Program-made: the position numbers and the translations under genes
Shown: positions 2,433 through 28,500 of the stretch, in pieces
Layout of the letters: each line of letters starts with the position of its first letter
Position numbering within the stretch: position 1 is the first letter of the stretch
IMG/VR virus record: IMGVR_UViG_3300021368_002493
Span: 1-40,543 of that record
Length of the DNA stretch: 40,543 nt
Direction: 5' to 3' (one strand)
Source of the DNA: a virus
Notes under the pieces: model-generated
The model's input: only the letters and a program-made list of their open reading frames with translations
Told to the model about the DNA's origin: nothing
The model's database searches: none

Positions 2433-2570
2433 ATGGCACTTTATGGAAAAGGTATTGAACATGTACCGGCAGCACCGAAGAAAACTCGTCAGGGGCGTTC
2501 CACAAATACGAAGTTGAGCCCTACGGCACGAAATGGACGGAAGAAGGCATATCGAGGTCAAGGTCGCTAA
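2433..2570 (+). CDS. Small basic cyanophage protein
   Basis: A 45-residue protein from ATG 2433 to TAA 2568-2570, with an AGAGGAAA ribosome-binding site in front. It starts MALYGKGIEHVPAAPKKTRQ and continues GRSTNTKLSP and ARNGRKKAYRGQGR. I recall this MALYGKG...KKTRQG...KLS...NGRKK...RGQG pattern from marine cyanomyoviruses, where it lies next to gp25. It is extremely basic (11 Lys or Arg) with almost no hydrophobic core, so it is probably disordered alone and may bind nucleic acid or an acidic protein surface. Its own sigma70-like promoter lies directly upstream, and its stop codon is embedded in the late promoter for gp25. Confidence 0.8.
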   Translation: MALYGKGIEHVPAAPKKTRQGRSTNTKLSPTARNGRKKAYRGQGR

Positions 2571-2573
2571 ATA
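2567..2573 (+). promoter_or_regulatory. T4-type late promoter for gp25
   Basis: CTAAATA, followed by ACT, matches the late-promoter motif of T4-like phages, recognised by the phage late sigma (gp55 type) with the sliding clamp. It overlaps the TAA stop of the small basic protein and lies 30 bases before the GTG of gp25. Three other copies of a TAAATAA motif head late units in this window. Confidence 0.65.
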
Positions 2574-2603
2574 ACTATACTTTGAGTATCAGGTTCTTTA
2601 GCA

Positions 2604-3023
2604 GTGTCAAAAACAGTACGGAGGAGGGATTTTACAGTCCCCGTAAAACAGTATAAAGACATTGATCTTTGTTTTCGTATCAATCCTGTTACAGGAGATA
2701 TTGCTACGAAATCAAATGAGGAAGCAATTAAGCAAGCATTAAAGAATCTGATGCTTACAAAACCAGGTGAAAAACCATTTAATCCTAATATTGGTAGTAG
2801 GATTCATGAATTATTATTTGAACCGCTTGATGATTTTACTGCTGATGCCTTAGAAGCTGAGATTAGAAACAATGTTGCTCAATTTGACGCTCGGATCCAG
2901 ATTATTGACATTGATATAGTAACATTAATATATGATAATGCTTACAGTGCTACTATGGAATTCCGAATTATCGGATCGCCAGTGGCACAAGAAATCAATT
3001 TTGTCCTTAAGAGACCCGAATAA
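2604..3023 (+). CDS. 25: Baseplate wedge subunit gp25
   Basis: A 139-residue protein of the GPW/gp25 family, the lysozyme-like core of the baseplate that bundles gp6 and the sheath initiator at the tube. The start is GTG 2604, giving MSKTVRRRDFTVPVKQYKDI. The family signature is the N-terminal region with DIATKSNEEAIKQALKNLML and then GEKPFNPNIGSRI (residues about 56-68) and HELLFEPLDD. T4 gp25 is about 132 residues, so length fits. The Shine-Dalgarno site is weak (AGG near 2591). Its stop TAA and the gp6 ATG share one base (TAATG), so the two proteins that contact each other are translationally coupled. The late promoter at 2567 drives it. Confidence 0.95.
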   Translation: MSKTVRRRDFTVPVKQYKDIDLCFRINPVTGDIATKSNEEAIKQALKNLMLTKPGEKPFNPNIGSRIHELLFEPLDDFTADALEAEIRNNVAQFDARIQIIDIDIVTLIYDNAYSATMEFRIIGSPVAQEINFVLKRPE

Positions 3024-5038
3024 TGCAACCTAATAATCTTACACAACTAGATTTCGTCGATATTCGTGCGTCTATTGTTGCGTATCTACAAACTAGACCA
3101 GAATTTAGCGATTATGAGTTTGAAGGTAGTACCCTATCATATCTGATTGATATTTTAGCGTACAATACCTACTACAGCGGGTTCACTGCTAATATGGCAA
3201 TGAACGAAGCATTTTTACAAACAGCAACTATAAGAGATAATATTGTAAAACATGCCAAATTATTAAATTATGTACCTCAATCTGTTACTGCAGCAAGAGC
3301 AGATTTAAGTGTAACGGTACAAACAGAGTTATTCGGAGGAATTTATCCTTCTACGGTTACATTTCCAAGAGGACTTGCTTATACTGGTGGCGGTTATGTT
3401 TGGAATTGTACCCAAGCAGTAACAGCAACTGTAAATCCTTCGACAGGAATTGCTGAAATTCCACTGTTATCTGTAAAAGAAGGCAGTTTAATTGATTTTA
3501 GTTACACTGTTAATACATTTACAACAGAAAAATATGAAATTCCTTCACCAGATGCAGATATTAACACTTTAAAAGTTACTGTGAAGGCGAATGAGAGTGC
3601 TACGCAGTCAGATATTTACAATAGAGCAGATAATATTACTGGTTTAACTGCAACTGATAGGGTATATTTTATTCATGAAGGTGAAGATCAGCGATTTGAA
3701 ATTCAGTTTGGTGATAATACCTCAGGTAGAGCACTGAGAGATGGTGAAGTTGTTTCCTTACAATACATCATTGCCAATGCTGAGACACCAAATGATGTTC
3801 AAACCTTTGTTTATGCTGGAGGTTTATTTGATAATTTGGGTAGACAGATCCTGGCATCCAATATTCGTACTACTGTTCTTCAAGCAGCATATGGTGGACA
3901 ACCTGCAGAAACGGTTGAATCTATCAAATATAACGCTCCGAGGTACTATTCTGCCCAATATAGAGCAGTTACAGCAGAAGATTATGCAATTATCACGAAA
4001 AAAGTTTATGATAATGCAAATGCTGTCGTTGCATATGGTGGAGATTTGTTAAATCCTCCTCAATACGGTAAAGTTTTCATCTCAATTCGCACAAAAACAG
4101 GTTCAACACTTAATGATGCAACCAAAAAGGCAATTTCTGCGGATTTGAGAAAGTATGCAATGGCATCTATCGACCCTGTGATCGTAGATCCGGACGAAAT
4201 GTTCATTTATACTAAGGTTTTTGCGCTTTACGACACTGGTTGCGGAGATGATCCTTCTACAATCAAGACACAAATCTCTGATGCGATTCAATCTTGGGGT
4301 CAACAGGCAGGAATTAACGCATTTAACTCCTCATTTAGAGCACAGCAGTATGAAAAAGCAATTATTGCTGCAAATAAGTGTGTTCTTGATGTTTCTGCAC
4401 AAATTTCTATCCTAAAATATATGAAACCAGACACAGGTGTAACTAATTCTTACACAATTACTGTCGGTCAACCTCTTTATGACTCTGCACCATCACAAAC
4501 TCAGTCCACTGCGGCAACAAAAGAACCTATTTTGCTGTCCGGTAAGTTCAGAACTGCAGATAGACCCGGATTAGATCAACAATTTGAAGATGATGGGTAT
4601 GGAAATATTGTTAGTTTCTATGATACTGGTACAAAAAAGGTTATTACCAACAAATCTATCGGAAGAGTTGACTATACCACTGGCACTATTGTTTTAGGAC
4701 CCATTAATATCATTGCGACAGGAGGTAATTTGCCTCAGGAGGGTGCTACTTTAATAACTGATGCTGTGACGGGTGCTGGTAGTGTATTGAATGAATCATT
4801 ATTGCCAACATCTCTTCAGATACCTGTTCAAATCATTCCATTAAACCCTGCAATCATTGTTGCAGCAACTCCTGGAACTACTCTTGACATTGTTGCACCG
4901 GATGTCACAGTTCAACCGAATGGCACTACTCCACCACCTCAAATCCCTCTAAATAGTTTGACACCAACAGTGTTTGACCAGACCGAAACAATCATTAATT
5001 TTAATGCAGTTAACAACGGCGGGTCATTAAATTCGTAA
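3023..5038 (+). CDS. 6: Baseplate wedge subunit gp6
   Basis: A 671-residue homologue of T4 gp6 (660 residues), the baseplate J-like protein that forms the ring of the inner baseplate. Evidence includes LSYLIDILAYNTYYSGFTAN near residue 40, the RDNIVKHAKLLNYVP signature (residues 73-87), DGEVVSLQYIIANAE in the middle, and APRYYSAQYRAVTAEDYA (residues about 305-322), typical of gp6/J proteins. Near residues 360-390 come NDATKKAISADLRKYAM and PVIVDPDEMFIYTK. The C terminus has a Pro/Thr/Asn-rich tail (NGTTPPPQIPLNS), probably a linker. It overlaps gp25 by one base. Residues 520-560 (GKFRTADRPGLDQ and GYGNIVSFYDTG) resemble the strand-turn-strand arrangement of other cyanophage gp6 proteins. Confidence 0.95.
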   Translation: MQPNNLTQLDFVDIRASIVAYLQTRPEFSDYEFEGSTLSYLIDILAYNTYYSGFTANMAMNEAFLQTATIRDNIVKHAKLLNYVPQSVTAARADLSVTVQTELFGGIYPSTVTFPRGLAYTGGGYVWNCTQAVTATVNPSTGIAEIPLLSVKEGSLIDFSYTVNTFTTEKYEIPSPDADINTLKVTVKANESATQSDIYNRADNITGLTATDRVYFIHEGEDQRFEIQFGDNTSGRALRDGEVVSLQYIIANAETPNDVQTFVYAGGLFDNLGRQILASNIRTTVLQAAYGGQPAETVESIKYNAPRYYSAQYRAVTAEDYAIITKKVYDNANAVVAYGGDLLNPPQYGKVFISIRTKTGSTLNDATKKAISADLRKYAMASIDPVIVDPDEMFIYTKVFALYDTGCGDDPSTIKTQISDAIQSWGQQAGINAFNSSFRAQQYEKAIIAANKCVLDVSAQISILKYMKPDTGVTNSYTITVGQPLYDSAPSQTQSTAATKEPILLSGKFRTADRPGLDQQFEDDGYGNIVSFYDTGTKKVITNKSIGRVDYTTGTIVLGPINIIATGGNLPQEGATLITDAVTGAGSVLNESLLPTSLQIPVQIIPLNPAIIVAATPGTTLDIVAPDVTVQPNGTTPPPQIPLNSLTPTVFDQTETIINFNAVNNGGSLNS

Positions 5039-5046
5039 ATTAAATA
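5039..5046 (+). promoter_or_regulatory. Possible late promoter before the giant gene
   Basis: ATTAAATA begins directly after the gp6 stop, 21 bases before the ATG at 5067. It differs from the TATAAATA consensus at two positions. The gap is only 28 bases, so read-through transcription from gp25/gp6 is also likely. Confidence 0.35.
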
Positions 5047-5066
5047 CCAACTTAGTGTTTAAGTAG

Positions 5067-7523
5067 ATGAGCAGAATTTCGGAAATTATCAGTAGTCAAG
5101 TCCCTGTGTTCATCAGGGAATCTTGTGGCGGAAATGGAAAAGACAATGGGGGAGCATTTGTTGCCTTCCTGAAGTATTACTATGAAACGCTTGAGAGAAC
5201 AGGATCTTCTATTGATATTCTGTTGAATCTTTTAGATTACTTGGATATTGACAAAATTGATACTAATGTAATTAACGGAAGAACTCACCTTGTCGAAGAC
5301 TTAAGTTCAACTTCCAATACTATTGTTGTTGAAAGTATTGACTCCTTTTTACTTAATAATGGTACGATTCGTATTGGTGATGAGATTATCACTTATGAAT
5401 CTACTACAAATTCCCCGAATATTTCGTTCAAACCTGGTGTTTCTTGGGAACAGGTTAAACTTAAGTTTATTGATCTAGCATCTATCATTGATCAGTTTGA
5501 CGGTGTAACAAGAGTTTTTCCTCTAGTTTCGCAAAACACTCCTGTCGCTCCCCCTTCTCCCTGTCATTTAATCGTCAAGGTTTATGACGAATATTTGATG
5601 CCAGGAATTGATTTTACTGTCAATGGAACCAATATTGCTTTTACTGAAGCACCTCGTACTCGGGTTCCTGCTGATGATGATGTGTCTACAACTATTACTT
5701 ATTTGAATGGTTTTGTAGAAAATGAAATTTTAGGTCTCACAGACATTTCTGGTCAGTTTGGTGACGGAAAAACTATCTTCTCGTTAACTACAGGACCTAT
5801 CAGCGACCCAACTAGTTACGAACCAGTTGCTCAGGAATATATCCTCGCAGTATATGATGGAAAACAATTAATTCCTGGAATTGACTTTTTTGTTAATAAT
5901 GACACTATTATTTTCAAAACAGCACCAGCAACCGGCAGAATTCTTCATATGTGCGCTATAGAAGCGCCTGTACCGAGTTTTGGTAGTGGTGCAGTAGGAT
6001 ATGCTAAGATCGATGATGATGGAGGCATTACAGGCGTTTCAGTGTCGAACACTGGATCTGGATATAGATATGATTATCCTCCAGCAATTTCAGTATCTTC
6101 TGAAAATGGATCTGGCGGTAGTGTTACTGCTTTAATCAATGGACTTAAAGATCTTTCTCTTCTTAGTGGAGGACTAGGATATAGTGATACTAACCCTCCG
6201 ATTGTCAAGATTGAAGCACCTACTGCACCAGGATCCAGCATTGCTCAAATTACAGCAACTGTTGTTAATGGTAGTGTTGTTAACCTTAATCTTGACAATT
6301 CTGGTAGCGGATATACATTTACCCCAAGAATTACTTTCCAACAACCTGGCGGTGCTCAAACTCCAGAGTTGACTATTGTTAACGGTTCTATTGTAAATAC
6401 TACAATTGCCGTAACAGAAGGCGGTAGCGGATATACAACTGCACCTGAGGTTTATATTGATGAACCAACTGGAGTGAATGGTATTCGTGCTAATTTAGAA
6501 GCAGTTATTGAAAATGGGGTTGTAGTTCAGATTAATGTTCTTAATCCTGGTCAAGGATACGAAACTACACCCAGAACTGCAATTATTGATCCTGCAGGAG
6601 CACAAGTTCTTGATGTTCAGGTAGATGGAACTGGTAGAGTTATTTCTATTGAACTGTTAACTGGTGGTGATGGTTATCTCGATGTGCCTTCGGTTTATAT
6701 TATCGACAATAGAGAAAATGGTGGAACTGGAGCAACTGCAGTAGCATCTATTTTCAATGGTAGAATCACTGATATTAATGTCACGAATTTTGGAACGGGA
6801 TATAGTGCAGATAATCCTCCCACTATCGTTATTCAGTCTCCTCCGCAAGCAGTTGCAGCAGGTTCTGTTGGACTGAATGAAGTTACCGGATTTAATGTTG
6901 ATAGTCCTGGAGAAGGATACTCAAAAGCGCAATTCTTAGGTGCTGCAAGGGGATCTAGCGGAATTACTTCTTTTACCGAGGAAGGAAATGCGCGTTATAC
7001 TAACAATACGATTGCTACGGCGCATTCTGATGAATCTGGTGTCACATGTTTAGATGCTTTGTTCCTTGAGCAGATTCTCGAAAAGTATAAAAATCAATAT
7101 TTACCCAATGTTCCGCAATTGAGTTATGATAAACTCAATGTTAGGACAGCATTTAAGACAATTCGCGACTTTTATCAAGCGAAAGGTACGTCTTTTAGTA
7201 TCTCATATCTCTTCAAACTTCTTTATGGTGAAACTGTCAGCATTTCTTACCCTAAAGACCAAATTATTAAACCATCTGCTGCAACATGGTCAACAGACAC
7301 CATTCTTCGTGCTACTCTAGTTAGCGGCAATCCTGATAATATTCGGGATGGACTTATTGAGCAGATTGCAGATATTGCGGATCCAAATGTTAGAAATGCT
7401 ACTGCATTGGTCGAAAACTTTATTTCTATCAGAACTTCGGATACAGATATTTACGAATTGGTTCTTTCTGAAGAAACGATTAATGGATCTTTCACTGTTC
7501 CATACAAAACGAAACTCGCATAA
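5067..7523 (+). CDS. Giant virion structural protein, N-terminal part (gp7 position)
   Basis: An 818-residue frame in the place of T4 gp7, ending at TAA 7521-7523. Residues 1-60 (MSRISEIISSQVPVFIRES...FVAFLKYYYETLERTGSSID) and 660-735 (EQILEKYKNQYLPNVPQ, then TIRDFYQAKGTSFSISYLFK and LLYGETVSISYP) form a helical domain recurrent in cyanophage baseplate proteins. Between them lie a beta module at residues 85-125 (ESIDSFLLNNGTIRIGDEI), two copies of a YD...PGIDFTVN strand module (about 173 and 262), and roughly eight GGSGY-type repeats (312-612). Wedge location is inferred from position and from the helical domain. The reading frame continues open past the TAA without any frame change, and the flanking sequence looks homologous, so this is probably the N-terminal part of a 6404-residue protein. 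Confidence 0.85.
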   Translation: MSRISEIISSQVPVFIRESCGGNGKDNGGAFVAFLKYYYETLERTGSSIDILLNLLDYLDIDKIDTNVINGRTHLVEDLSSTSNTIVVESIDSFLLNNGTIRIGDEIITYESTTNSPNISFKPGVSWEQVKLKFIDLASIIDQFDGVTRVFPLVSQNTPVAPPSPCHLIVKVYDEYLMPGIDFTVNGTNIAFTEAPRTRVPADDDVSTTITYLNGFVENEILGLTDISGQFGDGKTIFSLTTGPISDPTSYEPVAQEYILAVYDGKQLIPGIDFFVNNDTIIFKTAPATGRILHMCAIEAPVPSFGSGAVGYAKIDDDGGITGVSVSNTGSGYRYDYPPAISVSSENGSGGSVTALINGLKDLSLLSGGLGYSDTNPPIVKIEAPTAPGSSIAQITATVVNGSVVNLNLDNSGSGYTFTPRITFQQPGGAQTPELTIVNGSIVNTTIAVTEGGSGYTTAPEVYIDEPTGVNGIRANLEAVIENGVVVQINVLNPGQGYETTPRTAIIDPAGAQVLDVQVDGTGRVISIELLTGGDGYLDVPSVYIIDNRENGGTGATAVASIFNGRITDINVTNFGTGYSADNPPTIVIQSPPQAVAAGSVGLNEVTGFNVDSPGEGYSKAQFLGAARGSSGITSFTEEGNARYTNNTIATAHSDESGVTCLDALFLEQILEKYKNQYLPNVPQLSYDKLNVRTAFKTIRDFYQAKGTSFSISYLFKLLYGETVSISYPKDQIIKPSAATWSTDTILRATLVSGNPDNIRDGLIEQIADIADPNVRNATALVENFISIRTSDTDIYELVLSEETINGSFTVPYKTKLA
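5980..6920 (+). repeat. GGSGY-type beta repeats, block 1
   Basis: About eight imperfect repeats of some 36-40 codons encode the pattern GSGY-(T/D)-x2-P-x-(I/V), then a Gly-rich turn, then an (I/V)-x-NG-x-(I/V) strand, for example GGSGYTTAPEVYI, PGQGYETTPRTAI and FGTGYSADNPPTIVI. They are degenerate in DNA sequence, so they are protein-level repeats rather than recent tandem duplications. Similar blocks recur at 8455-9110, 14110-14830, 24020-24180, 25610-25780, 27890-28330 and 30397-30650. Confidence 0.85.
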
Positions 7524-7760
7524 CCTCTTGACACAACTACTAGTGTTATTACCGTAGACTCTACTATTGGTTGGCCGGAAAGAAACGGCGAAATCGTCAT
7601 TGGGGGCACGGAAATTGTTCGTTATAAGGAAAAATCCCTTAACCAGTTCATCGAATGTACTCGTTCTATTAATGATGTTGTTGAAGATTGGGATTCTGCA
7701 ACACAAGTAACCTCTAACTTCCAAGTTTATATTAACAGAGGAACCTCTACTGAGGTTATT
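7521..7760 (+). other. In-frame stop followed by coding sequence with no start
   Basis: The TAA at 7521-7523 is followed by 79 codons in the same frame without another stop, reaching the first ATG at 7761. The translation opens PLDTTTSVITVDSTIGWPER, then NGEIVIGGTEIVRYKEKSLN and FIECTRSINDVVEDW. The same module, (V)-x-S-x3-F/W-x3-G-x-I-x-I-x3-I-x-Y followed by F-x3-TR, occurs at residues 85-125 of the preceding frame and near 28430-28550 in a later gene, so this stretch is protein sequence. One base change, for example CAA for TAA, would make a single 6404-residue gene. An ATG at 7761 with a GAGG site five bases upstream could allow separate translation. Confidence 0.85.
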
Positions 7761-10700
7761 ATGAATGTTTTGGGTATTGTTGATGCCCAACAGACGGTAT
7801 TGACAGATACTGGATCTTATTATCTTCCCGGAGACAAACTTTCTGTTTCTAAATTGGGGGGATCTGGCGAACAACCTCAATTGACAACATGGTTGTATAA
7901 TGTTAAAAAATTAATCGAAGTATCCGGAATCACTTTCGGTGGAATTAACAATCAGTCTGCTACTGTTACATGTAATAATCCTCATGGTCTTTTGGTCGGT
8001 GATCAGGTCACAGTATATGGTGCAAATCCAATCATTTACAATGGCACCTTCCTGGTAACTTCTAGAGATAGTGAGACGATATTTCAGTACAGACTTGATC
8101 AACCCGCTGTCATTGAACCTCAAGGCAATATTTTAATTTCGGTTGACCTTAATAAAGGTAAATCTGATAACAACGCAGTAAATAACTCCATTAGTCCTTA
8201 TACGACTAATGTTCAGAACTCATTCTTTAATGATGATTATGTATATGTTGCATCTACAGGTATTCCCAATTACAAAATTGGACCATTTCCTGAATCTGCA
8301 CTTCTCCCCGGAAATCAGAGAAAGTTAAATCGATTCCCTCTTGCTCCTACAACTATTTCGGCAAAAGATGAAATTACCCCAGGTCCAATTGGAACATGGG
8401 TAAATGGTGTTTCTATTTGGTCCTATAAATCTTCTACTGCAAAGTTATTTGGTGCTGTTACTGGCATTGACATTATTACAAGAGGTTCTGATTATGATGC
8501 TGCAAACCCTCCTGTAATTAGTATTACTGGTGGAGGCGGAGTTGATGCTGCAGCATCTGTTATTGTTGATGGATCTATTACAGAAATTACTGTAACTGAA
8601 GGTGGTGAGGGATATACTTCATCTCCTCTGGTTTCTATTGTTGGTGGCAATGGGTCAGGTGCTGCTGCAACTGCGATTGTAACCAAAGGAAGGTTATCTA
8701 GAATTTTGATTAATTCTGGAGGCACAGGATATACCACAAAACCAACTATTACGATTGTTGGTGGTGGTGGAATAGGTGCAACAGCAGAAGCGGTTGTTCG
8801 TGGTCCTATTAAAGAAGTTAATATTGATAATGGTGGCGAATCTTATATCGCATTGCCACAAATTACATTGAGTTCGGGTTCGGGTGCTGTTGCACAACCC
8901 ATTGTGAATACGGATGGTAGAATTATTTCCGTTGCTATTATTGATGGCGGATCTGGATATACATCTGCTCCAGAGGTTGCTGTTAGTGGTGTTGGATTTG
9001 GTGCTGTATTGCGTGCTCAAATTGCAACTGATGGCGAAGAAGCTGGGACTGTTACCGGAATTGAAATTGTCAATAGAGGTATTGGATACGATCAGGGAAC
9101 AACATCTTTAGCATTGACTTCTATTGGTGAAGGAGCAACTTTCGCTCCAAAAGTTTTTGAATGGACTTATAACTTACAGGAGTCTACATCTTTTGATGCT
9201 CCTTTTGGGTCTGTTTTCCAAGGATTTAATACTCAATATGGTGGTGAATATGCTCATTTATCGAATCCGCAAAAATTAAGATTTATTCTTGGTGACAATC
9301 TATATGAAAACACTTCTGGTCAAATTTTAGAGCAGGAATCATCTATTGAACACTCTCCGATCATTGGATGGGCATTTGACGGAAATCCAATTTATGGACC
9401 GTATGGATTCCAAGATCCTACTGATCAAGGATCTTCAATTATAAGACTTGGAAGTTCTTATCAATTGAAATCAAACCTTGTTTATGATGAGGTTACTAAT
9501 CCAGTTCCGGTGAGAATTGCTGGACCTCTTTTAACAGAAGAACCTGCAGGCACTTTTGTTGAAGATTATGTTTACACCTTTGGATTGGGTGATTTGGATC
9601 AATATAATGGTCGTTTTTGCAAAACTCCAGACTTTCCAGAAGGCAGATATTGTTATTTTGTAACTATTGACGCTGCAGAGCAAGGAAATGCCATTTTCCC
9701 ATATGTTCTAGGACCTAGTTACAATTCTGTCATTGATAAGTGGAATATTAGTCCTGATGCAGTTCAGCAAAATATTCCTACCGGAGTTATTCGGTATAGA
9801 GACCCTTATGAAAATGTAGATATTGATGTTGAGAGGAATCCAAACGCATCTACGAATGGATTGACTCTTGAAAATGGAGATTTGTTGTTATTTGAAGTTG
9901 AAGATGAAAATAGGGATGGTCTTATCACTCAAGATGAGATTGATGATCCTGATCAAATTTTTGAAGAACCTCCTCTTCAACTTTATGACTATTTCCCAGT
10001 AGTTAAATTTGATTCTAAGGTCGATATTGAAGTTGACACTATTACCAAGTTTAAAGATGCTTCTGTAACTTCATTCAACATTGAAAATCCGGGTAGAAAC
10101 TACCAGGTTAATGATAGACTTGTTTTTGATGATCAAGATACTGATGGATCTGGAGTTTCGGCAAGAATTTCTAAAATTAAGGGAGAAACTGTATCTTCTT
10201 ATAGTTTTGAAAATATTAGCGGCAATAGTTTTGGAGTATTACAAACAGATGTTCCTCATAACTTAGTTATTGGCGATAAAGTTTTTGTTGATTATACGCC
10301 AACAATGGACAACACAAATAAAGAATTTGTTGTTCGTCAATACAGGGGAATTGAAGAGATTGTCATCAATCAGACTGGTTCGGGATATAATGAAGATATT
10401 CCTCCCACAATTATTATCGATGGTGATGGTGTTGGTGGTGAGTTGCAGGCACATGTTGATAGTGTTGGTGCGATTTCAATTGTTAATATTATCAACTCAG
10501 GGACAAATTATACATCCAATCCTAGAGTCATTCTTTCACACCCTCAAATCTTCAAAAAAGCAGATTATTACATTGCTCCGGTGAGAAGTAATGATTTTGT
10601 TGTAATTAATGATACTTTTGTTACGGAAGATAAGTCTTCATACATTTGTGGTGTAACTAAGAAATCTGACGGCACTGAAGTTGCATTTGTAGCGAAACTC

Positions 10701-13700
10701 TCTGCAACTGGTGTGAAACAGTGGGAAAAAACTTTAGAATCTATAGATGGATTGGATTATGCAGAGTTCAAGAATATTAATGTGTATGAAAATCAGATTT
10801 GGGTATCTGGTATTGTAAATTCTAATGTTTTGGTTCTAGATGCATACAATCCTGATATCATTCTGTGCAAATATACAGAATCTATTGATGGTCTTAGTGC
10901 AACACTTTCTTTCCAAAAGGCATATGCCGGTATTTCCGGTTCTACTAGAGAGGATGTTCCTACTGTATTGAAGAGATACTCCGATAACCGAGTTATTCTT
11001 GCAGGATATACAAATACTAACTCTTCTGTACCTTATGATGCATTTTTGTCTACTATTGATGCTGAAGGAAACTTCTCGATTAAGAGAAAAATTGCAACAT
11101 CTAATAGATCTGAAAAATTAATCGATGTTGTAGTTTCTGGAACAAATATTTACTTTACTCTAGAACTTTCAAATACTAGCACTCCAAATACTATCAATTT
11201 GGGATTAGGTAAGGCAACTGTTGGAGCGACATCTATTACAATCGACTGGGTTAAAGAATATACTTTGTCCGGATTCTCCTTAGTCAATCCTTCAATTGTA
11301 ATTGATGAATTTAATGAACTTTATATGGTTGCAGGAAGTTTTGTGACCTCCAATCCTAGCAATAAAGACTCCATTTTTGTCGTTAAATCCAATACAGATG
11401 GTGATGTTATCTGGTCTAAGAGATTCTTAGAAGATACTAGGTTTGAGAGTCTGGAAGTTGTTGGAAACTCCAAAATTGATATTTTTGGAGATCTTAGAGT
11501 TGCTTATAATTGTGTTGATACTGATAACGATAACCAGAAAGTCACCAAGGTTCTTGAAATTGATTATAAGGGAAATAATAAGTCTCACTATAGCATTTCT
11601 TTAGATGGTAATAGATCTAATCCAATTGAAGGATGGGATGTAAATGCTTTGTCTACGGATGTTTCTGGAGACACCTTCGTTGTAGGTCATTCTTATAAAA
11701 ACCAGAATGAATTCATCTTTGACTTCGCTCAAACTGATAGTGCTACAGATAAGACTGGGCATTATACTCCAACTTTGATTGGTAATGATGCTACAGACTC
11801 TCTTACTCTTCTTGGAGATGGTGTAGCAAAATTATTCGGTAAAGATGTTGCAACTCCAGCAAACTGGGAAAATGCAGCAGTTAAAATTCTTGGAACTGAA
11901 TTATCTGGTAAGTTAGATGAGGAATGGACCTTAGAATTCATGTTATACCATGATTCTGCGAATTCCGACACTCATGGACAAACGCAGCAAACTCTAGTTT
12001 CTATTGGAGATGCTACAGACACTACAGGTGGTCTTTGGTTGTATTATGATAGAACGCAGTCCGGTCCTAGTGGTCCCCTTGAGTTGATTGTAACTTCTAA
12101 TGGAACTACTATCAATTCAACCTCTAGTGGGGCAACTTCAGTCTCTACTTCCTTGTTTGCAGATGATACTTGGCAATTTGTATCTTTGAGAAGGTCTGGT
12201 AGTACATTTACCGTTTACATTAACGGTATTCAGCAGATTACCGGTACAGTCGGAAATGTTACCTTGGCAAACAAAGATCTTTATATTGGTAATATACCTG
12301 GAAGAGATGGTACTGCCGGAACATTCAGATCTAATGAGCAAGGTCAATATTACATCGACAATCTTAGACTTCGGAGTGAGGCAATTGCCGTTACTGTTCC
12401 TTCTGATGTTCTTACAATTCCTACTAATGGGGCGTTTGGATTAACATATGATTGGTCTGATGATGCCTGGTTTACCGGTTATCTTGAAAAGTATTCTTAT
12501 ATCTCTGATGATGGATTGGCAGGAAAATTTGCTCGATTAAATGGTTCTACCACCATGATTGGTTCTGGTAGTGCTGCAAATTCAAATCTAGTTGTACAAG
12601 TAACTTCTTTCTCCAATATTACTCCCACTAACGCTGTATTTACTATAACTGGTGTAGAATTGGGTGATATTGGACTCCAAACCTTGGATTATGACGATGC
12701 AGATGCTGGTTTGACGCAAGATCCTATCACTATGTCTTTTGTTAGTGATATTATTGGATCTAGAACTGCTACCGTCCCTTCACCAGGATCTCAAAAATTA
12801 ATTGCGACAGCCGTTGTTAAAGATCGTTATTTCTTTAAAGTTACTAATACTCTCAAGATTGACAATGTTCAAGAGTTGACCCTAAATCAATCTGCTAACT
12901 TTACCCCAGGAACTAATTTAGTTCTTAGTGATGCAGATGGATTGTTTATCAATAGCGGTTATATTATTAGTGTAGATGTAGAAAATAAAAAAGTATATAC
13001 TGCTGTCAATAATAACGCATGGAGTGATGATCTCAACACTGGAGAATTGGCAACTGCACAATTTAATGAACTCTCCACATATGGAATCCAAGGTCAAATT
13101 CCAGATGATGTGAACGAGATTGAGAGATTTACTTTCCCAGAAATTGCTGCAACAACTTCAGGTGTCTTTGACATTGATTTAGCGACATATGATAACCCTG
13201 AAGGCGGAACTAACAATTTAGATGAGTTTGCCAAGTTTAAACCTTGGGAAGACGGTCTTTACAGTGTAAGAATTGATGAAGTATCGACATCTGAGTTTAT
13301 CGTTGGATCTGTTGTAAGTGTCGGTAGTTCTGATGTATCTTTTAACGCTGAATATAGTACGATTCAAATCGGAACTCTTACTGGTGTAGAAAAAATTACT
13401 CTTATCACCAATTTGAAGAAGATTGTTCAGGTAACTTCTGCTGCTAATAGTGATACCGTATATGTTATCACTGACACTAAGCATTATTTAAATGCTGGGG
13501 AAATCATTCTTATCGATGGAAATCCATCTGAAGAAATCGGTGGTATTGTATATGATGAATATGATGGAGCATTCCCAGTCGATTCCATCGTATCTCCCCT
13601 CGAATTTACATATAAGTTAAATCAAGTTGCAGTTACAAGTCCTGCCACATCTGCAAGTTCTGTCAACATTTTCGTTAAGTCTCCTACTTTGAAAATGTAT

Positions 13701-16700
13701 TATGGACACCAGTATCTCTTTGATTTGAGTCATTCTTCCATGCTTGGAGGAAATTTATCTTTCTCTAAAGATAATCTTTATAAATTGGAATATTCTTTCA
13801 ACTCTATCAATAGAGTTGGAACTCCTGGTATCACTGGGGAGGGACAACCAACTCCAACCGTTATTTTGAAGGTTGATAGAGAAGTAGTCACTAACATTTC
13901 ATATTACTTTGATCCTTCTAGACCCGGTGAAAATTCTCCTGTTATTGCGGGTAGTTATCTTGATGTTGTTAATTCTCCTTATGTTGGCGAATTCACTATT
14001 TCGTCAACTGCGGGAGCAACAATTACTACTGGAGCAGATACTTTTAAATTCCCATTGATCAACGAACCCGAGGGTGCTGCAGAAGTTGCAAATACAACAT
14101 ATAGCACAAGTTCTCAGAAAGCAGTTGGTTCTATTTCTGATATTAGAATTGTTAACCCTGGAGGATTCTATACAAAACTTCCGGTTGTTTCTGGAATTGA
14201 ATCCTCTCGTCAAATTGAAAGAGTTCAAATCAATGATCCTGGAACTGAATATGCTGTTGGTGAATATACTGGAATACCTATTTCCGGAGATGGTGAAGGT
14301 GGTCTTGTAACGATTACGGTTGCTGATGGTACAGATGATGAGGGTATTACAGTTCCTGGTCAAATTCAATCAGTAGTCGTAACATCTCCTGGTAAGGGAT
14401 ACACAACCGCTACTATTGATTTAGAATCTATCGATGGAATTCTTGGGGCGGGATTGACTGGTTCTGGTGCTGACTTACAGGTTGTTATTCCTCCGTTTGG
14501 TAGTGATGCTTCTATTTTTACCAAAGGAACTAATGTTGGTAAGATTAAGAATCTTAAAAATAATAATTTTGGATATGATTATCCCCATGACTATACTCTG
14601 CGTCCCGAAATCACATTCCCAATCAACGCTCAACTGACTTCTACCAGTATTCTTGATAGCATTACTGTTACAGATCCTGGTTCTGGTTATTCGCAGGCAC
14701 CCGCTGTCGTTATTACTGGTGGTGGCGGTTCTGGAGCTGTTGCAGAGGCACTTGTAAGAAACGGAAGATTGGACCAGATTCTCGTTAAGGATCCTGGAGC
14801 AGGTTATTCTTCCGAACCTGCTGTTGAACTGAAATCCTCCTTCAATTATGTTATTAACCTTGATTTAGGTCTTTTGCAATTCGCTTTCCCACACGGAATT
14901 GTAAATGGTGCAGAAGTTACCCTCAATGTTGTTGATACTGGTGATGGTGCAGATTTCCCTGTCGCAGCAGGTGCGATTGGTAGACTTAATGGCAATACCA
15001 CATATTATGCTATTTCTGGCAATGCAAATTCTCTTGACGATGATCAGTTAAGACTTGCAATCACTCAAGAAAACGCAGAACTTGGTGATTACATCACATT
15101 CAGTAATACTGGAGAAGGAAGGCAGCAAGTTCTTACATCTTCTTTCGGCGGTGCTGCTCAGGCAAATGTTGTCACTTCTACATTCCTTCAAGGTGAGCAA
15201 GTTTATCAAGGAGACTCGATTGAAAATGCAACTGCTACTGGATTTATTTCTACTAACAATGGATGGCAGATTGGACCCAGAATCGTAAAAATTGTTGACT
15301 ATTCTGGAACATTCAATATTGGTCAGAGAATTACTGGCGTAGTTTCTAAGTCTTCAGGTTTAATTAGTGATATTTCTATCGCTAAAGGCGTTCTTGAAAT
15401 TGGTTCTATTACTAGAACTACAGGTCAATTTATTGATGATGTTGGTAAACCTTCTGAAATTATTCAGAAAATTCAAGACTCTTATTATTATCAAGATTTC
15501 TCATATGCAATTAAATCTTCCGTATCTATTGAAGAGTGGAAGCAAATTCTCTATAACAATGTTCACCCAGCATCATTTAAGATTTTTGGAGAACTTTCGT
15601 TTAATGAATATGCATTTGTTCCTAATAAAGAAACTGCATTCCAATTAACGAAATCGGTTCAATTGGCACAAGAGGCAGTTGTTCCAAATATTCAGAGTTT
15701 TGCTCTTGTCGAACCTATTTACTCAGAATTCAATAATACTGAGGTCTTGTTCCGTCAAAAGAGACTGACTTCTTCTGAGAATATTTTGACTTCGGTTGTT
15801 CAGCGTCTTGATGATATTTCTAATCTCTTTGATGGCGAAAGAATTGCTTTCCCATTAACAGTTGATGGAAGCACCGTTGTTGCCAACCAAAATCAGTTGA
15901 TGATTATTCTCAACGGCGTTGTACAAAATCCTGGTTTAGCATTTACCATTCAAGGCGATTCTGTTGTCTTTAGTGAACCTCCTCAACCTCCCGCTAGTGT
16001 CAAGTATGTTGACATTGAATTTGAAGAAATTGCTACCGTTAGATTTACATTCGACAACATTAGTGGAATTTTCCCTCTTGTCGGCAATACTCTACTTGGA
16101 ACTGAGTCTCAAGCAAGACTCACTGTAACTAGTGTTGAAGGCAATGATGTACTTGGATATATTACCCAAGGAACATTTATTCCTGGAGAATTAACTACCG
16201 TTAGTGCTACTGGATTTAACGCAAACTATAATTCTTCCACTGCAGTTACAACAACGGGATTATTCATTTTTGGAGAACAGATTACAAACTTCTCTGGTGA
16301 TACTGCTAAAGTTGAAGTAATTAACCTTGCTACTGAGGGTGAAGGTGCCCAAGGACAACTTCGATACTCTATTGGTACTAGTACAACTTCTTTTGAGGTT
16401 ATTGGTGTTGATGGAACAGAAATTGAGGCAGGAATCTTTGTTGTTGGTGAAAAATACCAGATGGCAGCAGAAGTATTTGAAGTTACTGAAATTTCTGTTG
16501 GAGAAGAGTCTACAACCCTTACTGTTATCAGAGGGCAAGATGCTACTTCGGCAGGACCTCAGCAAGAAAATACTCCTATCTACAGAACAAACATTGCTCT
16601 CAATACAGAGTTAACTCTTAGCAAAACTGCAGGAACATATCAGTCTACTCCTGGATTGTTTAGTATTGATTTAGATGATATCATTATCTCTGCTCAAAGT

Positions 16701-19700
16701 GGAATTGTTGCTAGAGTTGTATCCGCCAATGTTTATTCCGATCCATTTACTGGTGCTGAAGTACCTCAGGTTAATATTTCGGATGGATCCTCGTTCTTTG
16801 GACTCTTATTCAATAGAATTGCATCTACAACATATCCGAATGTTGTCCTCGACAATATTGCTGCTTCTACTGTAAATCTGGTAAGATATGATGACAATAC
16901 TACTGCGTTCAACAACAATTTCCCTGCAAATGAACAAATTAGTAATTATATTCTTCCTTATGATAATGAAACTGGAGATTTCCAAGATGGAGAATCGATT
17001 CGTAACTATAAGTTGGAATATGGAAGCGCAAGTGGAGAATTCGTTGCTGGAGAACCTGCTGTTGTTAGAAAACTCTCATTCAGAGACATTAGTGGAACTG
17101 GATTCTTTGGTATTGGACAAGTCGTTAGAACTTTAGATACCAAGGCAGAAATTCTTGGATTTGATCAAGCAAATGCTACATTGTATCTTGGAAAGATTGG
17201 CAGATGTCTCTCCACAGGTGAAGATGTACATTCGGTTACCTTTAACAATGAAGCAGAATTGGATTCTGCCCAATCTAAATTTGGAAATACTTCCTTAGAG
17301 TTAAGTGCTGCTACTACCGATTATATTTCTGTAGGTTCTTCTACAGAATTTGGATGGGGAACTGCCGCATACACAGTTGAGTGCTATGTTCGAGCAACAA
17401 CTACTGGATTGACAGGTTCTACTACTCTAATCGATTTTAGAGACGATCTCTCCGATAATTCACATGGAGTTCTATATCTTTCTGCCGGTCAAATTAGATA
17501 TGATGTTGGTGGAGTAAATATTGTCAACTCTGGACTGGTTGCTCTTAATAATGATACTTGGTATCATGTAGCAATTCAGAGATCCAGCACAGGCACTAAC
17601 GGAGTCAGTTTGTTAATTGATGGTGCTCAGGCAGCACAAGGAACCGATGCTACAAACTACCCATCCAGAGGTGTTCGTGTTGGTGCAAATGCTGGTGCTG
17701 CACAACCATTTGACGGTCACATTGATGAACTTAGATTGTCTGGTTCTAGCAGATATTCTACTATTCCTTTTGTTCCACAACCAGGAATATTCCAAGGTGA
17801 CGCAAATTCCAAACTGTTGCTGCACTTTGATGGTGCAGATACTCAGAGATATGACTATGATTGGTCTGGCGGAGAATCTTTCACTGTAGGAGAGGACTTT
17901 AATAATGATGCAATCTTAGCAACTACTACTGCTAACTCTGGAAACGCGGTTTCTGGATTTGATGGAAAAACGCATCGATATTACGATGCTGGCGATCTTA
18001 TTACAGCAAACCGTGATTATATTGCAAATGAAGTAGTTTATCTCTTGAAGAAGAAGTTCCCATATTTCACTGTTCCTGGTGGAGAAATTGCTTGTGAAGA
18101 TGATATTAGGGATATTCTTGATGCGTTGATTCAAGATATTCGTAGTGGCAGTAACTCAAATATTTGGGATGCATCTGCTCTCTATGTCGATAGAACTGTA
18201 AATCCGGTAACCTTAAATCATGTAGAACCTGAGATTAGAGAAACTATTTTTGCTTATGATAAACTCAAGGAAATCCTCAAGTATATTGTTAACAATGAAC
18301 TTTGGTCAACCAAGGGAGATCATGGATTAACACAGTTCACTGATGTCACTATTACCGATTCGTCCACAAATACATTTACGCAATTAACACCGACTAATGC
18401 AACATATGATCCTGCTACAGGAGACATGGTTGTAACGGTCTCTGGACATGGTTTGGTCGGTCCTACGACACATACCCCTACAGCAGCAAACTATGCGCCT
18501 TCTACGGGCATTATGACGCTGACAGTGAATAATCATGGATTCGTTGCAGGAGATAAGATTCAGATCAATGAGAATGCTCTGACATTTACTTGTGCAATGG
18601 ATGGATACACTGCCCAGAAGACATATCCTAGATCTAATGATCCTGGTGCTCTGGGATGGTTAGAGATCACTAACATCACCACAAATACTTTTGATGTTAA
18701 TGTTGGAGAGTCCCTGCTTGAATACTATACGGTAACTGCTTTAGATTATGATCCCACTAACAATAAAGCAGTGTTGACCATTGGTGACCATGAATTAAGA
18801 CCTGGAACTTCCATTAAACTTCAGAACGAGTCCCTGACACTTACTTGTGCAACTGACAGTCATGGTAGTGAGCACTCCTATCCGCGATCTGGAGATGGAA
18901 ACTATGATACTGCGATTGAAATTGTCAATAATGGATCTAGTCACACTCCTACAAATGTTTCTTACAATCCTCAGGACGGAGAAACTGTATTTACTATTGC
19001 AGATCATGGTTGGGCAGTTGGTGATAAGATTAGAATCGAAGACAATAGTCTTACATTTACTTGTTCTCAAGATGATAACAATTCTGAGCACACATATCCA
19101 AGATCTACTGATCCTGCTAGTGGAAGATGGTTAAGAATTACTGCGGTTACCACAGATACATTTACAGTCAATACTGGAGATGCTGGAACTGCAAAACAAT
19201 ATGATCATACTTTTGTGAGTGCTGCAGCAAATGCAATTACTTACAGAGATGGCACAATCACTATTAACCTTCCTGCTACTACTGATGTATCGGATCACAT
19301 CTTCATTCGTGATGAGTTAATTGGCGGCAATGGTGCTGTTGTTGCTGGTGGTAATTATGCACATGCCTTTGTAAGTTCTCAGGCAGATTCGCTTATCCTG
19401 AAAGGTGATTCTATTACTTTTGCTGATGAATCTATCGTCTTTACTTGCACTAGTGACAATAACGAGAGACAACTGGCACATCCTCGTTCTTTCAACGATC
19501 GTCCGTATAGAGCGGTTCTTGACCTTAAGTCCCATACTTCCAATACATTTACTCTTGATGTTGGAGAGTCTGCCCCAGATGCTCAGTTTGCACATACATT
19601 TGTAAGTGCAGAAACTAATGCGATTACTGTAGTTGACTACAATACCTTAGATTGTGCGGATGTATATGCAACAACATCTAACCTGGTAGAAATTCTTACG

Positions 19701-22700
19701 GATACCCTTAGAGAGGCAAACTCTCCTAACAATACTGCCGATGGAGATCATTTAGCAACTATTACTAAAGTTTCTCCTGCTTATGAGTTTGTTGGTGGAA
19801 CGGTAGATGCTTTCTATGAAGTTGGGTTTAATGTTGATTATCATGATACCAATAATGATATTGTTTATAGTAATCAAATTGATTCTGATGGAAGATATAG
19901 ATTTAAGGATGCTGCAGGTTTAATTCGTGCTAACCGTAAGGTTATCGTCGATAAAACATCTGCCGATCTTCTGACCAAGTATCCCGATCTTGCTCAGGAT
20001 ATGCCATTGAATGAAAATGGTGGAAGCACTGCAGGAACTGATCGTTGTAAGACCGATCTAGGATTACTGTTAGATGCTGTTGCAAATGACATTGAAAATG
20101 ATGGAAACGAAAATATCGTAGATGCTACAAGATTCTATCTTGGTACAAATGATGTTCTTGTTCAGATCAGATTCCAAGTTCATCAGTCGGTATATGCTCA
20201 TGAAAGACTTGGTTACTACATGAAGCAAGCCATCAACGGTGATCTTACATATGATAATACTGATGGAATTATTGTTGGTGATTGGGGCATCACTGATGAT
20301 CCTGGTGAGTGTGCAGATGTTCAAAATGCTATCGATACTTTAATCACGACTTTGAATGACATTCTCGCTCCTACTGGTAGTGATTATGCAGTTGCAGCTG
20401 ACAGACTCTACTTCAATAGACAATACATCGCAGAAGAATCGACTGGACTTACCACAAATCAATTCACATATGATTTGAATGGTGTTACCTATAGCGCATT
20501 TGTATATCCTGAAGGAACAAATGGCGAAATCAAGTGTCAAAGAGACCTGAAACTGATTCTTCTTTCTATTATTTCCGACCTTCAAACTGGTGGAAGTAAT
20601 AGTACGATTGATGCAATTGAAAGTTATTTGACTGCTACTGGAGCAATTGATCATGTTGAAAGTGAACTTCTCGCTACGGTATATGCTATTGAACAACTTA
20701 AATTCCTTGGAGAAAAAGCACTTGATAATAGACTCTATGAGTTTAATTCTGGATTTACCGATCCTGATTATTCTGCTGTTTATACTGATGAGCAACCATA
20801 TAGAGATAGTGAAGTAACTACAAATATCTCTGAAGTTATTTCTCGATATAAAGAATTAGTTGACATCGCTGTTAAGATGCTTTCGCCTGGAGGAGAACCA
20901 TCCAGAAATGCTGGTGAGTTGATCCTGTATAATGAAAATTACTACAGTGAGCAGATCACTCAATTGGTCAATACGCAATTTGGAACAAATTCCTGGCAAT
21001 ATGATACTTTCTTGGAAACTGTTGTAAACGATACAGTTCACGATCTGGTTACTACCGATATTAATGATAAGTCCTTAGCATATGCTATTGATTTTAGTTC
21101 AGTTACTTCTGAGGAAATTGCCGTTGGATCTGCTTTATACCTGCCCGGTACACCCAATTCATATGCACTTGTGTATGAATATGATTCTGTTAATGAGACT
21201 GCAGTCGTTGGAACCATTTCGGATACCTTATGGGTTGCAGGAAATACAATTAGTTCTTATGATGAATCGGGATGGTCTGGTGTAATTAATACTATTACTG
21301 CTTTTGATTGGTATAATTCTCCAAGCAATCTCAGGACTATTGAACATGCTAAGACAATTTTATCCGATGTTAGCGGTGAATTGTCTTCCCTGAACCTCTA
21401 CACCAATCCTGAAAACTTTAATACTGCTGCATGGTCTCAAAATAATATTAGTTCTATATCGACCTTGGTTGATGGACCTGAAGCAGGTGACTATGCAACA
21501 GCATATCAAGTAACTCCAGATTCTACTGCTGGTCAGCATTATATCGAAAGAAACTACAACCTTGCTTCTTTCGAGACATTTGATACTGATACTGATACAT
21601 TTGACACCGATACAACTCGTTTTGATGAAGGTCCTACTAACCAGACTTTGGATCAAACATTGACGGCATCCGTATTTGTAAGATCTGATAATGCTCCATC
21701 CATAAGGTTTGAGATTAGACTTGACAATGGGTCTCAAAGACTCTTCTTCGATACAAATCTTGTAGATGGTAGTGTCGGATCTCTGTTCATTCCTGCCGGT
21801 GGTGCAACTGGAGTTTATGGAGCAATTCCTTATGGTAATGGTTGGTATAGACTTTTCATTAGTGCAACCTTTGCATATGGTTTCAATTCTTTACAAAGTC
21901 GTGTTTACTTTAAAAATTCCTCAGGTTCTATTGACTACAGCACCGGTATTGTTCCCTCTTCGGTATATGGTGCAAAACTGAACAAAGGCGGTATTGACGC
22001 ATATACTAGTGTTCTTGGTCAGGTATTCTATTCCAATGCCCAATACAATATCCAAAAATTTGCTCTCGATACCTTAGAAGAGTATATGTATGCTGCTTTA
22101 AAAAATCAACTGGTTTCTCCAGCAGCAGAATCTGGATTCTATGAGTATGAAAATACTACTGCCACAACTAAGTTTGACTTCCTCTCAATTCAAAGAGTAG
22201 TTAAGGAGAATATCAATATTATTCGACAGCAAATTCTCACTGGATCTTACTACACTCAGGTCACCGCTTATAATGGTATCACTATTCCTACTAGGACATA
22301 TGGAACTAGAAATAAACCTGTTGGTATTGCTGGTGGAGTTAATGAGGCAGAATACTTCTATGGAACTTACAGCGATAGATATGCCGAAGTTAACACTTTA
22401 AGTGTTAATGAAGGATATATTGCAAAAGTCTATAAGAGATTCCGAATTGATGGTGATATCACTGACGGTCCTTACACAATGAATGAAACTGTTGCAAAAC
22501 AGGGTGCTCCTTCTATCACTGGAATTGTTTATGGATTCAGTCAAGACGAAAACTTCAAATATCTTGATGTTGAAGTTACCGCTGGTCCTTGGGCAATCAC
22601 AGATACGGTTATTGGCGCTGAAAATAGCACTTCTGCTCAAATCAGTGGAATTGAAAATAGATTGCAAATCATTGATCTGAGTGGTGAGTTTATTGCCGAC

Positions 22701-24313: not shown

Positions 24314-25531
24314 ATGTCCAGACAAATAGTAAATGTTGGCGCAGTTGCTAATGATAATACCGGCGATACTTTGCGAGCGGGCGGAATTAAGGTAAACGAT
24401 AATTTTACCGAAGTTTATACCGCTCTTGGTAATGGAACGGATTTGTCTATCAGTACCGCGAATGCATCTAGCAATCAGGTCTTAAGATATAATGGGTCAA
24501 CTTTTGTCCCTTCTGATTACAATAGTTTAACATCCAACTTAGATGTTGCATCTCATAGCATTGTTTCTACGGGAGATGGAAATATTACATTCAATCCCAG
24601 TGGAGCGGGTCAAGTTCAAATTGTAACTGGATCTATTATCAATACTTTTGACAATGCGACAGGAATTGTTGATTTTCCGACAAGAGTCAAATTTAAAAAT
24701 GAGTATGGTGCTATAGGAGATGCTCCATCTGCATCTACATATGGAGGATATTATTACACAGTTGATGGTGATGATAATCCATATGTAAACATTAACATCA
24801 CATCTGGTGGTGTTGGTGATGTAAGAGCGAAACTTGTTACCGAATATTCCAGCATTGGATTACTAGGTGATGTTGATCTGACAAATGCACCGACAAATGA
24901 TCAGGTTTTAAAATGGAATGGTACGAATTGGGTTGCTGGAGATGATGCTGCTGGAGTAAGTGCAATTAATACTTTTGCCAATATTACGGCAGATACTGGA
25001 AGTACGACAGCTGATCAGCAAGCAGATTCCTTAACTATTACTGGAGGAACTAATATTGCCACTTCTATTGCTGGCGATGTGGTGACTATTGATTTTAATG
25101 GAACTCTTACTACTACCTTTGCTGCTTTAACGGACACCAATGTTGCTGGTGTCACCGCTGGAAGTAGTCTTTATTTCACCGGAACTAATTGGGTGCCATC
25201 TGCTTCCCCTACCGTTTGGTGGACTGTTAATGCGAATGGAAATGCAGATTATACATTCCAAGGACCTGGATTCTCTGGAACTGCAAATGACCCGGCACTC
25301 TATGTTTATAGAGGATTTACTTATGCCTTTGACAATAGTGTTCAAGGTGCAGGACATCCTTTTAGAATTCAATCTACTCAAGGATTGACTGGAACAGCAT
25401 ATACTTCTGGACAATCCGGAAGCGGGTCTAGTATTTTGTATTGGACTGTTCCTTTAGATGCTCCTAACACACTGTACTATCAGTGTACACTTCATGCTTC
25501 GATGCAAGGCACTATTAATGTTGTAGGTTGA
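24314..25531 (+). CDS. Virion structural protein with cupredoxin-like C-terminal domain
   Basis: A 405-residue protein. Its N terminus MSRQIVNVGAVANDNTGDTL...GGIKVNDNFTEVYTALG follows the N-x-G-x2-ND-x-TGD-x-LR-x6-(K/V)-N-x-NF-x-E-x-Y pattern of phage fibre and virion proteins. Residues 210-300 are Thr/Asp-rich beta repeats. The C-terminal domain (about residues 305-405) has ALYVYRGFTYAFDNS, then GHPFRI with His348, and LYYQCTLHASMQG with Cys391, His394 and Met397. These are the four ligands of a type 1 copper centre in cupredoxins; the C-x2-H-x2-M loop equals that of amicyanin, and the His-to-Cys spacing of 43 is in the usual range. Function on the virion is unknown; copper binding is a prediction. 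It follows a late promoter and has no strong ribosome-binding site. Confidence 0.85.
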   Translation: MSRQIVNVGAVANDNTGDTLRAGGIKVNDNFTEVYTALGNGTDLSISTANASSNQVLRYNGSTFVPSDYNSLTSNLDVASHSIVSTGDGNITFNPSGAGQVQIVTGSIINTFDNATGIVDFPTRVKFKNEYGAIGDAPSASTYGGYYYTVDGDDNPYVNINITSGGVGDVRAKLVTEYSSIGLLGDVDLTNAPTNDQVLKWNGTNWVAGDDAAGVSAINTFANITADTGSTTADQQADSLTITGGTNIATSIAGDVVTIDFNGTLTTTFAALTDTNVAGVTAGSSLYFTGTNWVPSASPTVWWTVNANGNADYTFQGPGFSGTANDPALYVYRGFTYAFDNSVQGAGHPFRIQSTQGLTGTAYTSGQSGSGSSILYWTVPLDAPNTLYYQCTLHASMQGTINVVG

Positions 25532-25534
25532 TAA

Positions 25535-28500
25535 ATGGCAAGAACAGTACCCGGATCCGGCGCAATTATCAAACCGCTTTTTGATGACTTTTTTGGTGTT
25601 CGTGCCGTTAAAGTTTTAGATGGCGGTAGCGGATACGATCCCTTAGATCCTCCAAGACTAACAATAACTGGATGTGGAACTCCAACATCCGAAGCGTTGT
25701 TGTACCCTATCATTGATGGGGATTCTGGTAAAATTGTTCATGTTAGGGTTTTAGCAAGAGGTAGAGGATATGACCCATTGCGGTTGCAGGTAACCCCTCT
25801 TCAAGAAACACCAAATATCATATCTTCATTTGACATTAACAGGATTTGGCAAAGCACTTCAAATTCGCAAACCCAGGCAGTTTTTGTTGTCACTGGTGGA
25901 GATGTTACAGATAGACTTCGTATTACATCTGATAATGATCCGAAACCTTCAAATCACATCCCTGGAGAAAGAGATCCTGGAGGAATTGCAACTATAAATG
26001 ATAGGAATTTTGTAAACACTATTGTTTATAGAGGAGGCAAAAATGTTCCCTTCCCTGCAACTGAAGGCAATCCATTCCAGCAAAATAAGAATGTAGCAAT
26101 TCTTGCTAATGGAGGTCTTTTACATACTCCTGATTGGGGACAAATAGGTTCTATTCCAGTAGGTCTTAATGTTGATCATGTAAAGTATCCCCATTTAAAA
26201 AATACTAATGTCAATTACGACACCATTATTTCAAATAACATATATCATTATCAAACTAGTAAATTAATTAACGAGTTTAGTTATACGAATGGTGTTTTTG
26301 AATGGGGTAAGGTTCAACCCTTTGTATGGAAAATTAAAGTTGAGTTTGATAATATTCTTATTCCAGTTACTGGCATTGATGAAACTTTATCGCCAGTTAG
26401 TGTAGGAAGAATTGTAGAAGTTGCTGGTAAAACTATTCGAGGCAGCATTGCAAAAATTGTCAGAGACAATACGAATAGTATTACAAAAGTATATCTTAGA
26501 GCAATTGGGGGAACGGGGGAATTTGAACCTGGAGATTTGTGTTTAGGTGACACAGGATTTACTTTTAAGGTATCTGGTTCTCAAATTGACTTCCCTAGTG
26601 GCATTTTTTATATTGACTTTGGTGATGATGCTGAAGAATTTGGAAACTTTGCTCCAAATACCTGGTATTTTTCACCGGAAAACATTAGAGTACAGAGAAA
26701 TTATCAAATTATTTGGGACCAGTCAGATCCTTCAAATGCTTCTACTAATGTTCATCTTAATGGACATCCAATGCAGTTCAGCACAACTCAGGATGGTTTG
26801 TTGAATGGAGGAACTCTGTACTATAACAGCACAGGTGTTACTCAGGCACCGGTTGTTGATTATGAAAATGAATTCCAACCGACTTTCATAATGAGTCCTG
26901 ATGAAAATAATAGAATTTACTATTATTGTAAATATCACCGATATATGTCGGGATACACAGGTGATGAAGGGTATATGGTATTAGATCCTGAGGTTGAAGA
27001 TGAACCTCTATCTAATAATTATTACTATGAAAATTACTATCAAAGTGATAGTGAAGATCCTAATACCATTGACAGATCTAGGCATCCTGATGGACATTCT
27101 AAAATAGTCGGTGTTTCTTTTGACGGTTATCCAATTTATGGACCCTATGGATACGATGATAGTGGTAATGTAATTAAGCAGACATCTTCTTACAGGTATA
27201 AGACTACTATTGAACTTCCTGGCAATCGTCCTATAGTTACCACTGAAGGACTAGTCACAAAAGTATTGACTATTGCAGATTCGAGATTAAATGTTGATGG
27301 CGTCGTTCCAGCGTTCTTACAGATGGAACGAGGAAAAACATATGTTTTTGATGCTAGTGATGCATCAATGGAAAACCAGATTGCACTTTTGTCAATTACT
27401 GAAGATGGATGGCACGCTGAGGGAGGAACTGTAGGTGATGTATCTGTTCCTTATGGTGGAATAGGTGTTGAATATAGAATTGATGGCGATATTGTCGAAT
27501 ATCAAACCTACCTATCATTGTACGCCGGAGCAACTAGTAGAGAACTTAGAATCACTCCATCCGTAGACTCACCCGGACTATTATTCTTATTCACATATCA
27601 ATCTGCTGGGAATAGTGTCCGAAATGTTATTTCTGGTAATCTTATTGGCGATTTTATTGAAGACTATATTTACGATAGTGCTGTTGGAACCTTAGATGCA
27701 TTTAACGGTAAGTTTGGCGTTACTCCCGAATATCCAAATGGAACATATGCATACTTCCTGAGTGAAGACGGTAGTGGTAATCCAACATATCCATATGCCA
27801 TCGGTCCAAAGTTTTATGGTGTACCAGTATTTGAAGGTGAAACACCACCAGAACCTGCTTCTGTTTTCCCCACAGAAGTTGATGGAGATGTTGTTCTTGA
27901 CGAATTGGGAAGAGTTTCTTATGTCAAAATGACTAGGAAGGGTGACAATTATTTTGGTCCTGCAGAGGCAAAAATTCTTGGAGGAGAAGGATCTGGAGCA
28001 ACTGCAACTCCTATTGTACAGACTGTTACTGGTTTAACCCTCCTAAATTCCGGTAGAAGTTATGAGAGACCCCCCACACTTGTTTTTGAAGGCGGTGGTG
28101 GAGAAGGTGCAAAAGGTGCTGCATCTATTGATACTTTAGGAAGACTTACCAATATTTCTATTGTAGATCCTGGTGAGTTCTATCAATCTGCACCTTACAT
28201 CTTAGTTACTGGTGGCGGTGGAATTGGTGCTAAAGCAGAAGCAATTGTCAATCAAGGACAAATTACTGCTATCAATATTTTGGATGAGGGAACCGGATAT
28301 ACAAGTCCACCAAATATTATCTTTACTCGATTAGTAAATCTTAAGAGGAAGACTCGTTCTAGGCAGGCATTCAACTCTTCAAATATCTATCTTACTGGAT
28401 TGGTCAAAACTGTTGACCCATCAGACACTAACATTTATGTAAATTCTACAGATTCATTCCCTGGATCTGGAACAATATTCTTAAATAATGAGACCATTGC

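Follow-up and report, generated by a model that had tools for sequence, protein, structure and literature searches.

Fourteen sequenced phages have a single gene annotated just after gp6, with a length of 13.4-21.4 kb where the record is complete. In WH25-B, P-SSM7 and S-RIM8 this gene runs without interruption for 18.8, 21.4 and 19.2 kb, respectively, and eleven more records also have one gene right after gp6 (QB2, S-CAM8, S-RS29, S-MbCM100, Syn19, S-MS29, S-RIM12, ACG-2014d, S-SSM2, P-HM2 and S-M1), although the S-SSM2 record ends inside the giant gene. The family protein is about 6,000-7,000 aa in close relatives. The suspicion that a shorter family, phrog_19630 (1266 aa), showed natural gene splits was not borne out by two candidate isolates, P-RSM1 and S-SSM2, whose records proved to be truncated within the gene. 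Both records were linearised within the giant gene and carry an annotated cut copy (for P-RSM1, L099 1992-5547, corresponding to HQ634175.1 1-3556; for S-SSM2, L096 90-4675, corresponding to JF974292.1 1-4586), which may explain the existence of this separate 1266-position family.

The stretch of DNA analyzed here, referred to as the window, is an IMG/VR virus record of 40,543 bases, an assembled metagenomic contig. Its ORF list contains an ORF of 818 aa at 5067-7523, ending at TAA 7521-7523, and another of 5506 aa in the same frame at 7761-24281. Read through from 5067 to 24281, the frame comprises 6404 codons, of which codon 819 is the only internal stop; the first-pass annotation had described a frame opened at 5067, closed by this TAA and then open again to 24281, and its coordinates were right. 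Both pieces, which are on the + strand, matched the phrog_701 profile (6136 positions). The N-terminal 818 codons (5067-7520), lying directly after gp6 as in the isolates, aligned with positions 4-813 (E=0), and the remainder of the gene (7524-24281, open to TGA at 24279-24281) matched over 7524-9000 (E=5.6e-296), its first 492 codons corresponding to positions 815-1305. The stop therefore takes up the single profile position between 813 and 815, and the profile has no gap there. By tblastn, the proteins of WH25-B, P-SSM7 and S-RIM8 could be followed on the window gene up to about 24260-24275.

The neighboring genes agree with those of the isolates: upstream is the baseplate wedge gene gp6 (3023-5038, + strand; PF21379, phrog_219), downstream is a gp9-like gene for a baseplate wedge or tail fiber connector protein (24314-25531, + strand; PF07880, phrog_677), and the order gp25, gp6, giant gene, gp9, wedge gene, gp8 in the window equals that of WH25-B, P-SSM7 and S-RIM8. 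Judged from homology and gene order, 5067-24281 is one gene, predicted to encode a giant virion structural (baseplate-region) protein of a T4-like marine cyanophage (Kyanoviridae), and the copy in the window belongs, though interrupted, to phrog_701, its homology not being in doubt. No Pfam domain was found in either piece of the gene, and a sequence search of the PDB returned chance matches only. An AlphaFold model of residues 601-1080 was mediocre (mean pLDDT 58, pTM 0.34) and placed the stop position in a loop after a strand; a Foldseek search with it gave no match below E=0.001, the T4 baseplate chain 5iv5_BJ being listed at E=0.054. Elsewhere in this region, at 2226-2433, the window was without homologues of an ~828 aa baseplate wedge protein (phrog_719) and of a PAAR-motif protein (phrog_281), both of which WH25-B has just upstream of gp25; the PAAR protein matches 278 phage records.

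In relatives, the codon matching 7521-7523 was never a stop. Across 84 loci, taken from IMG/VR and from four isolates, it was GAA in 58, GAG in 22, CAA in two and CAG in two, and in ten further isolates it was GAA (seven), GAG (two) or CAA (one). The alignment of homologues across the stop that the first-pass annotation had proposed as a check thus gave a sense codon in 94 of 94 loci (Glu in 89, Gln in five, a stop in none). Among the 61 distinct sequences, 58 had Glu and three had Gln at this near-invariant position, within the stretch FxVPYKTKLAEPL...ITVDSTIGWPERNGE. The alignment indicates that the ancestral codon is Glu, not Gln, and the suggestion that the TAA lay one base from an original CAA is not borne out, given GAA or GAG in 89 of the 94 loci. 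An exact-pattern scan of IMG/VR for the 48-base stretch with the stop found it in no other contig among the records searched. Within the DNA fetched for each of the 84 loci, one locus alone had an interrupted frame; the other 83 showed the single continuous reading frame that is a trait of phrog_701, which in the window is broken by the TAA at codon 819.

The one exception is also the nearest relative of the window, IMGVR_UViG_3300032182_000851 (hereafter L006), which is 93% identical to it in DNA over 2524-9949 (7.4 kb) and 98% identical in the protein just after the stop. L006 has GAA where the window has TAA, a difference of G to T at 7521. L006 has, in turn, its own one-base insertion at about its position 6211 (window 8734), which breaks the giant gene ~1.2 kb after the stop of the window. 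At the insertion, L006 reads ATACCCACAAA versus ATACCACAAA; all other loci keep an open frame at this site, within the DNA fetched for them.

The codons that follow the stop have been constrained as protein. Between the window and L006, dN/dS was 0.146 for 5067-7520, 0.038 for 7524-7760 and 0.064 for 7524-9948, and the 79 codons before ATG 7761 were among the best conserved of the region. When changes on the window branch were polarised with six outgroups, the ratio of nonsynonymous to synonymous changes was 13:40 after the stop versus 16:40 before it. These comparisons indicate that the codons after the stop are under purifying selection as strong as those before it, the window branch included, and the likeness of the ratios on the two sides implies that coding constraint lasted until very recently or still lasts. 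Because the post-stop sequence evolved as protein nearly to the present, the stop would have to be very recent, read through, or absent from the real genome. The proposal that 7524-7760 is protein-coding is thereby confirmed by the continuity of the profile, the dN/dS to L006 (0.04 when rounded) and the conserved residues. It had been put forward because the stretch resembles a module seen elsewhere in the window; that resemblance exists, but taken alone it is weak (33% identity over 49 aa to 28412-28552, E=0.010; 38% identity over 34 aa to 5301-5399, E=0.093). The module, which is short and beta-rich (ITVDST..GWPERNGEI.IGG.EI..Y), shows weak recurrence across two genes, at 5301-5399, 7527-7680 and 28412-28552, and it may serve these baseplate proteins as a repeating structural unit.

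We consider it very probable that the frame is one gene apart from the TAA, and that the TAA reflects either a consensus error from sequencing or assembly or a nonsense allele that is rare in the population sampled. Codon 819 would have arisen by a solitary, very recent one-base change of G to T, from Glu to stop, in this metagenomic contig only. Such a nonsense variant or sequencing error was among the options offered by the first-pass annotation, and it is strongly supported by the uniqueness of the stop to this contig, by the ancestral Glu and by the absence of other lesions from the main genes of the window. On the side of error are the metagenomic origin of the sequence, the uniqueness of the stop, and the one-base lesion in the giant gene of the closest contig, L006. 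Counting against a generally poor sequence, the window shows no deviation over the first 1600 codons at the 328 residues that are invariant elsewhere, and no excess of oxidative-type G-to-T changes was seen relative to L006 (24 of 507 differences). About 3.9% of random single substitutions in the giant gene yield a stop, a figure which makes a lone nonsense error somewhat unlikely and so leaves room for a true allele; in a scan of many contigs, however, one nonsense change comes as no surprise. In a genome that truly has the TAA, translation would stop after 818 residues, and without the action of a suppressor the virus could probably not produce the complete protein. We found no literature on nonsense codons in the giant baseplate gene.

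A stop with a function was also weighed. Programmed read-through, in which the TAA would terminate an 818-residue protein and sometimes be passed to give a 6404-residue protein, is very improbable in our view, and we give as little credence to a real allele recently fixed in one cyanophage population, with read-through or a suppressor tRNA yielding short and giant baseplate proteins. In favor of read-through, the frame beyond the stop remains open and shows purifying selection, and the stop is followed by a C; the stop also adjoins the recurrent beta module, such that a truncated product can be imagined. However, a deliberately used stop should be common to relatives, and it occurs in none of the 94, not even in L006 at 93% identity; the stop is flanked on both sides by near-invariant residues, among them FxVPYKTKLAE and ITVDSTIGWPERNG, the 120 nt downstream (7521-7640) fold no better than shuffled sequences (z=-0.73), and there is no tRNA within the 40,543-base window. 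Being unique to this contig, the stop gives the read-through option no support.

Equally hard to sustain is a true split into proteins of 818 aa and 5506 aa, the second of which would be started anew at ATG 7761 (7761-7763, + strand) from a GAGG site. The GAGG was correctly placed five bases before that ATG, but it is formed by the codons of a conserved Glu-Val pair, and the 79 intervening codons, conserved as protein (dN/dS 0.038, with many invariant residues), would go untranslated. The proposed restart is an ordinary Met codon of the long protein: of 61 distinct homologues, 32 have Met there and the others have Leu, Val or Ile. No relative divides the giant gene here, leaving the split unsupported. 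That TAA codes for an amino acid in this phage, as one in-frame TAA at a Glu position might suggest, can be dismissed as the least probable reading of all, since TAA occurs once in 6404 codons versus 251 GAA codons, no suppressor tRNA was found within the window, and TAA ends eight homology-supported genes there (2433, 2604, 3023, 25535, 29759, 31291, 38574 and 38804). That TAA is a normal stop elsewhere in the window had been anticipated correctly, but the count of at least ten genes was slightly high, there being these eight and one doubtful gene (519).

We infer that the stop has no programmed role. As the claimed functional split or read-through site is unsupported, it was judged not to be a real feature, though the TAA is present in the sequence as given. 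What remains is an unremarkable interruption, in one contig, of a known gene, and it does not argue for recoding, read-through or a gene split. Caution is warranted with gene prediction, which will divide the locus into proteins of 818 and 5506 aa, although the family has a single giant protein. Should the allele be real, it would represent a nonsense mutation arisen naturally in a tail gene that is probably essential, and its interest for population genetics would be modest.

In phages with stop-codon reassignment, the recoded codon is present in many genes. The crAss-like phages read TAG as Gln (PMC9523058), and they resemble the window to the extent that an in-frame stop codon lies within a phage gene. 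The window differs from reassigning phages in having one TAA in one gene, with TAA ending other genes. Much closer are the phrog_701 relatives, such as WH25-B (XLM56117.1) and P-SSM7 (ADO99013.1, annotated T4-LIKE GC 643), whose proteins hold the same position between gp6 and gp9 as the window gene and belong to the same length class (6280 and 7124 aa, respectively, versus 6404 codons). Protein identity between these relatives and the window is about 51-64% over the longest stretches, and the profile match spans the stop; at the matching codon the relatives have GAA or GAG, whereas the window has its one internal TAA, at codon 819.
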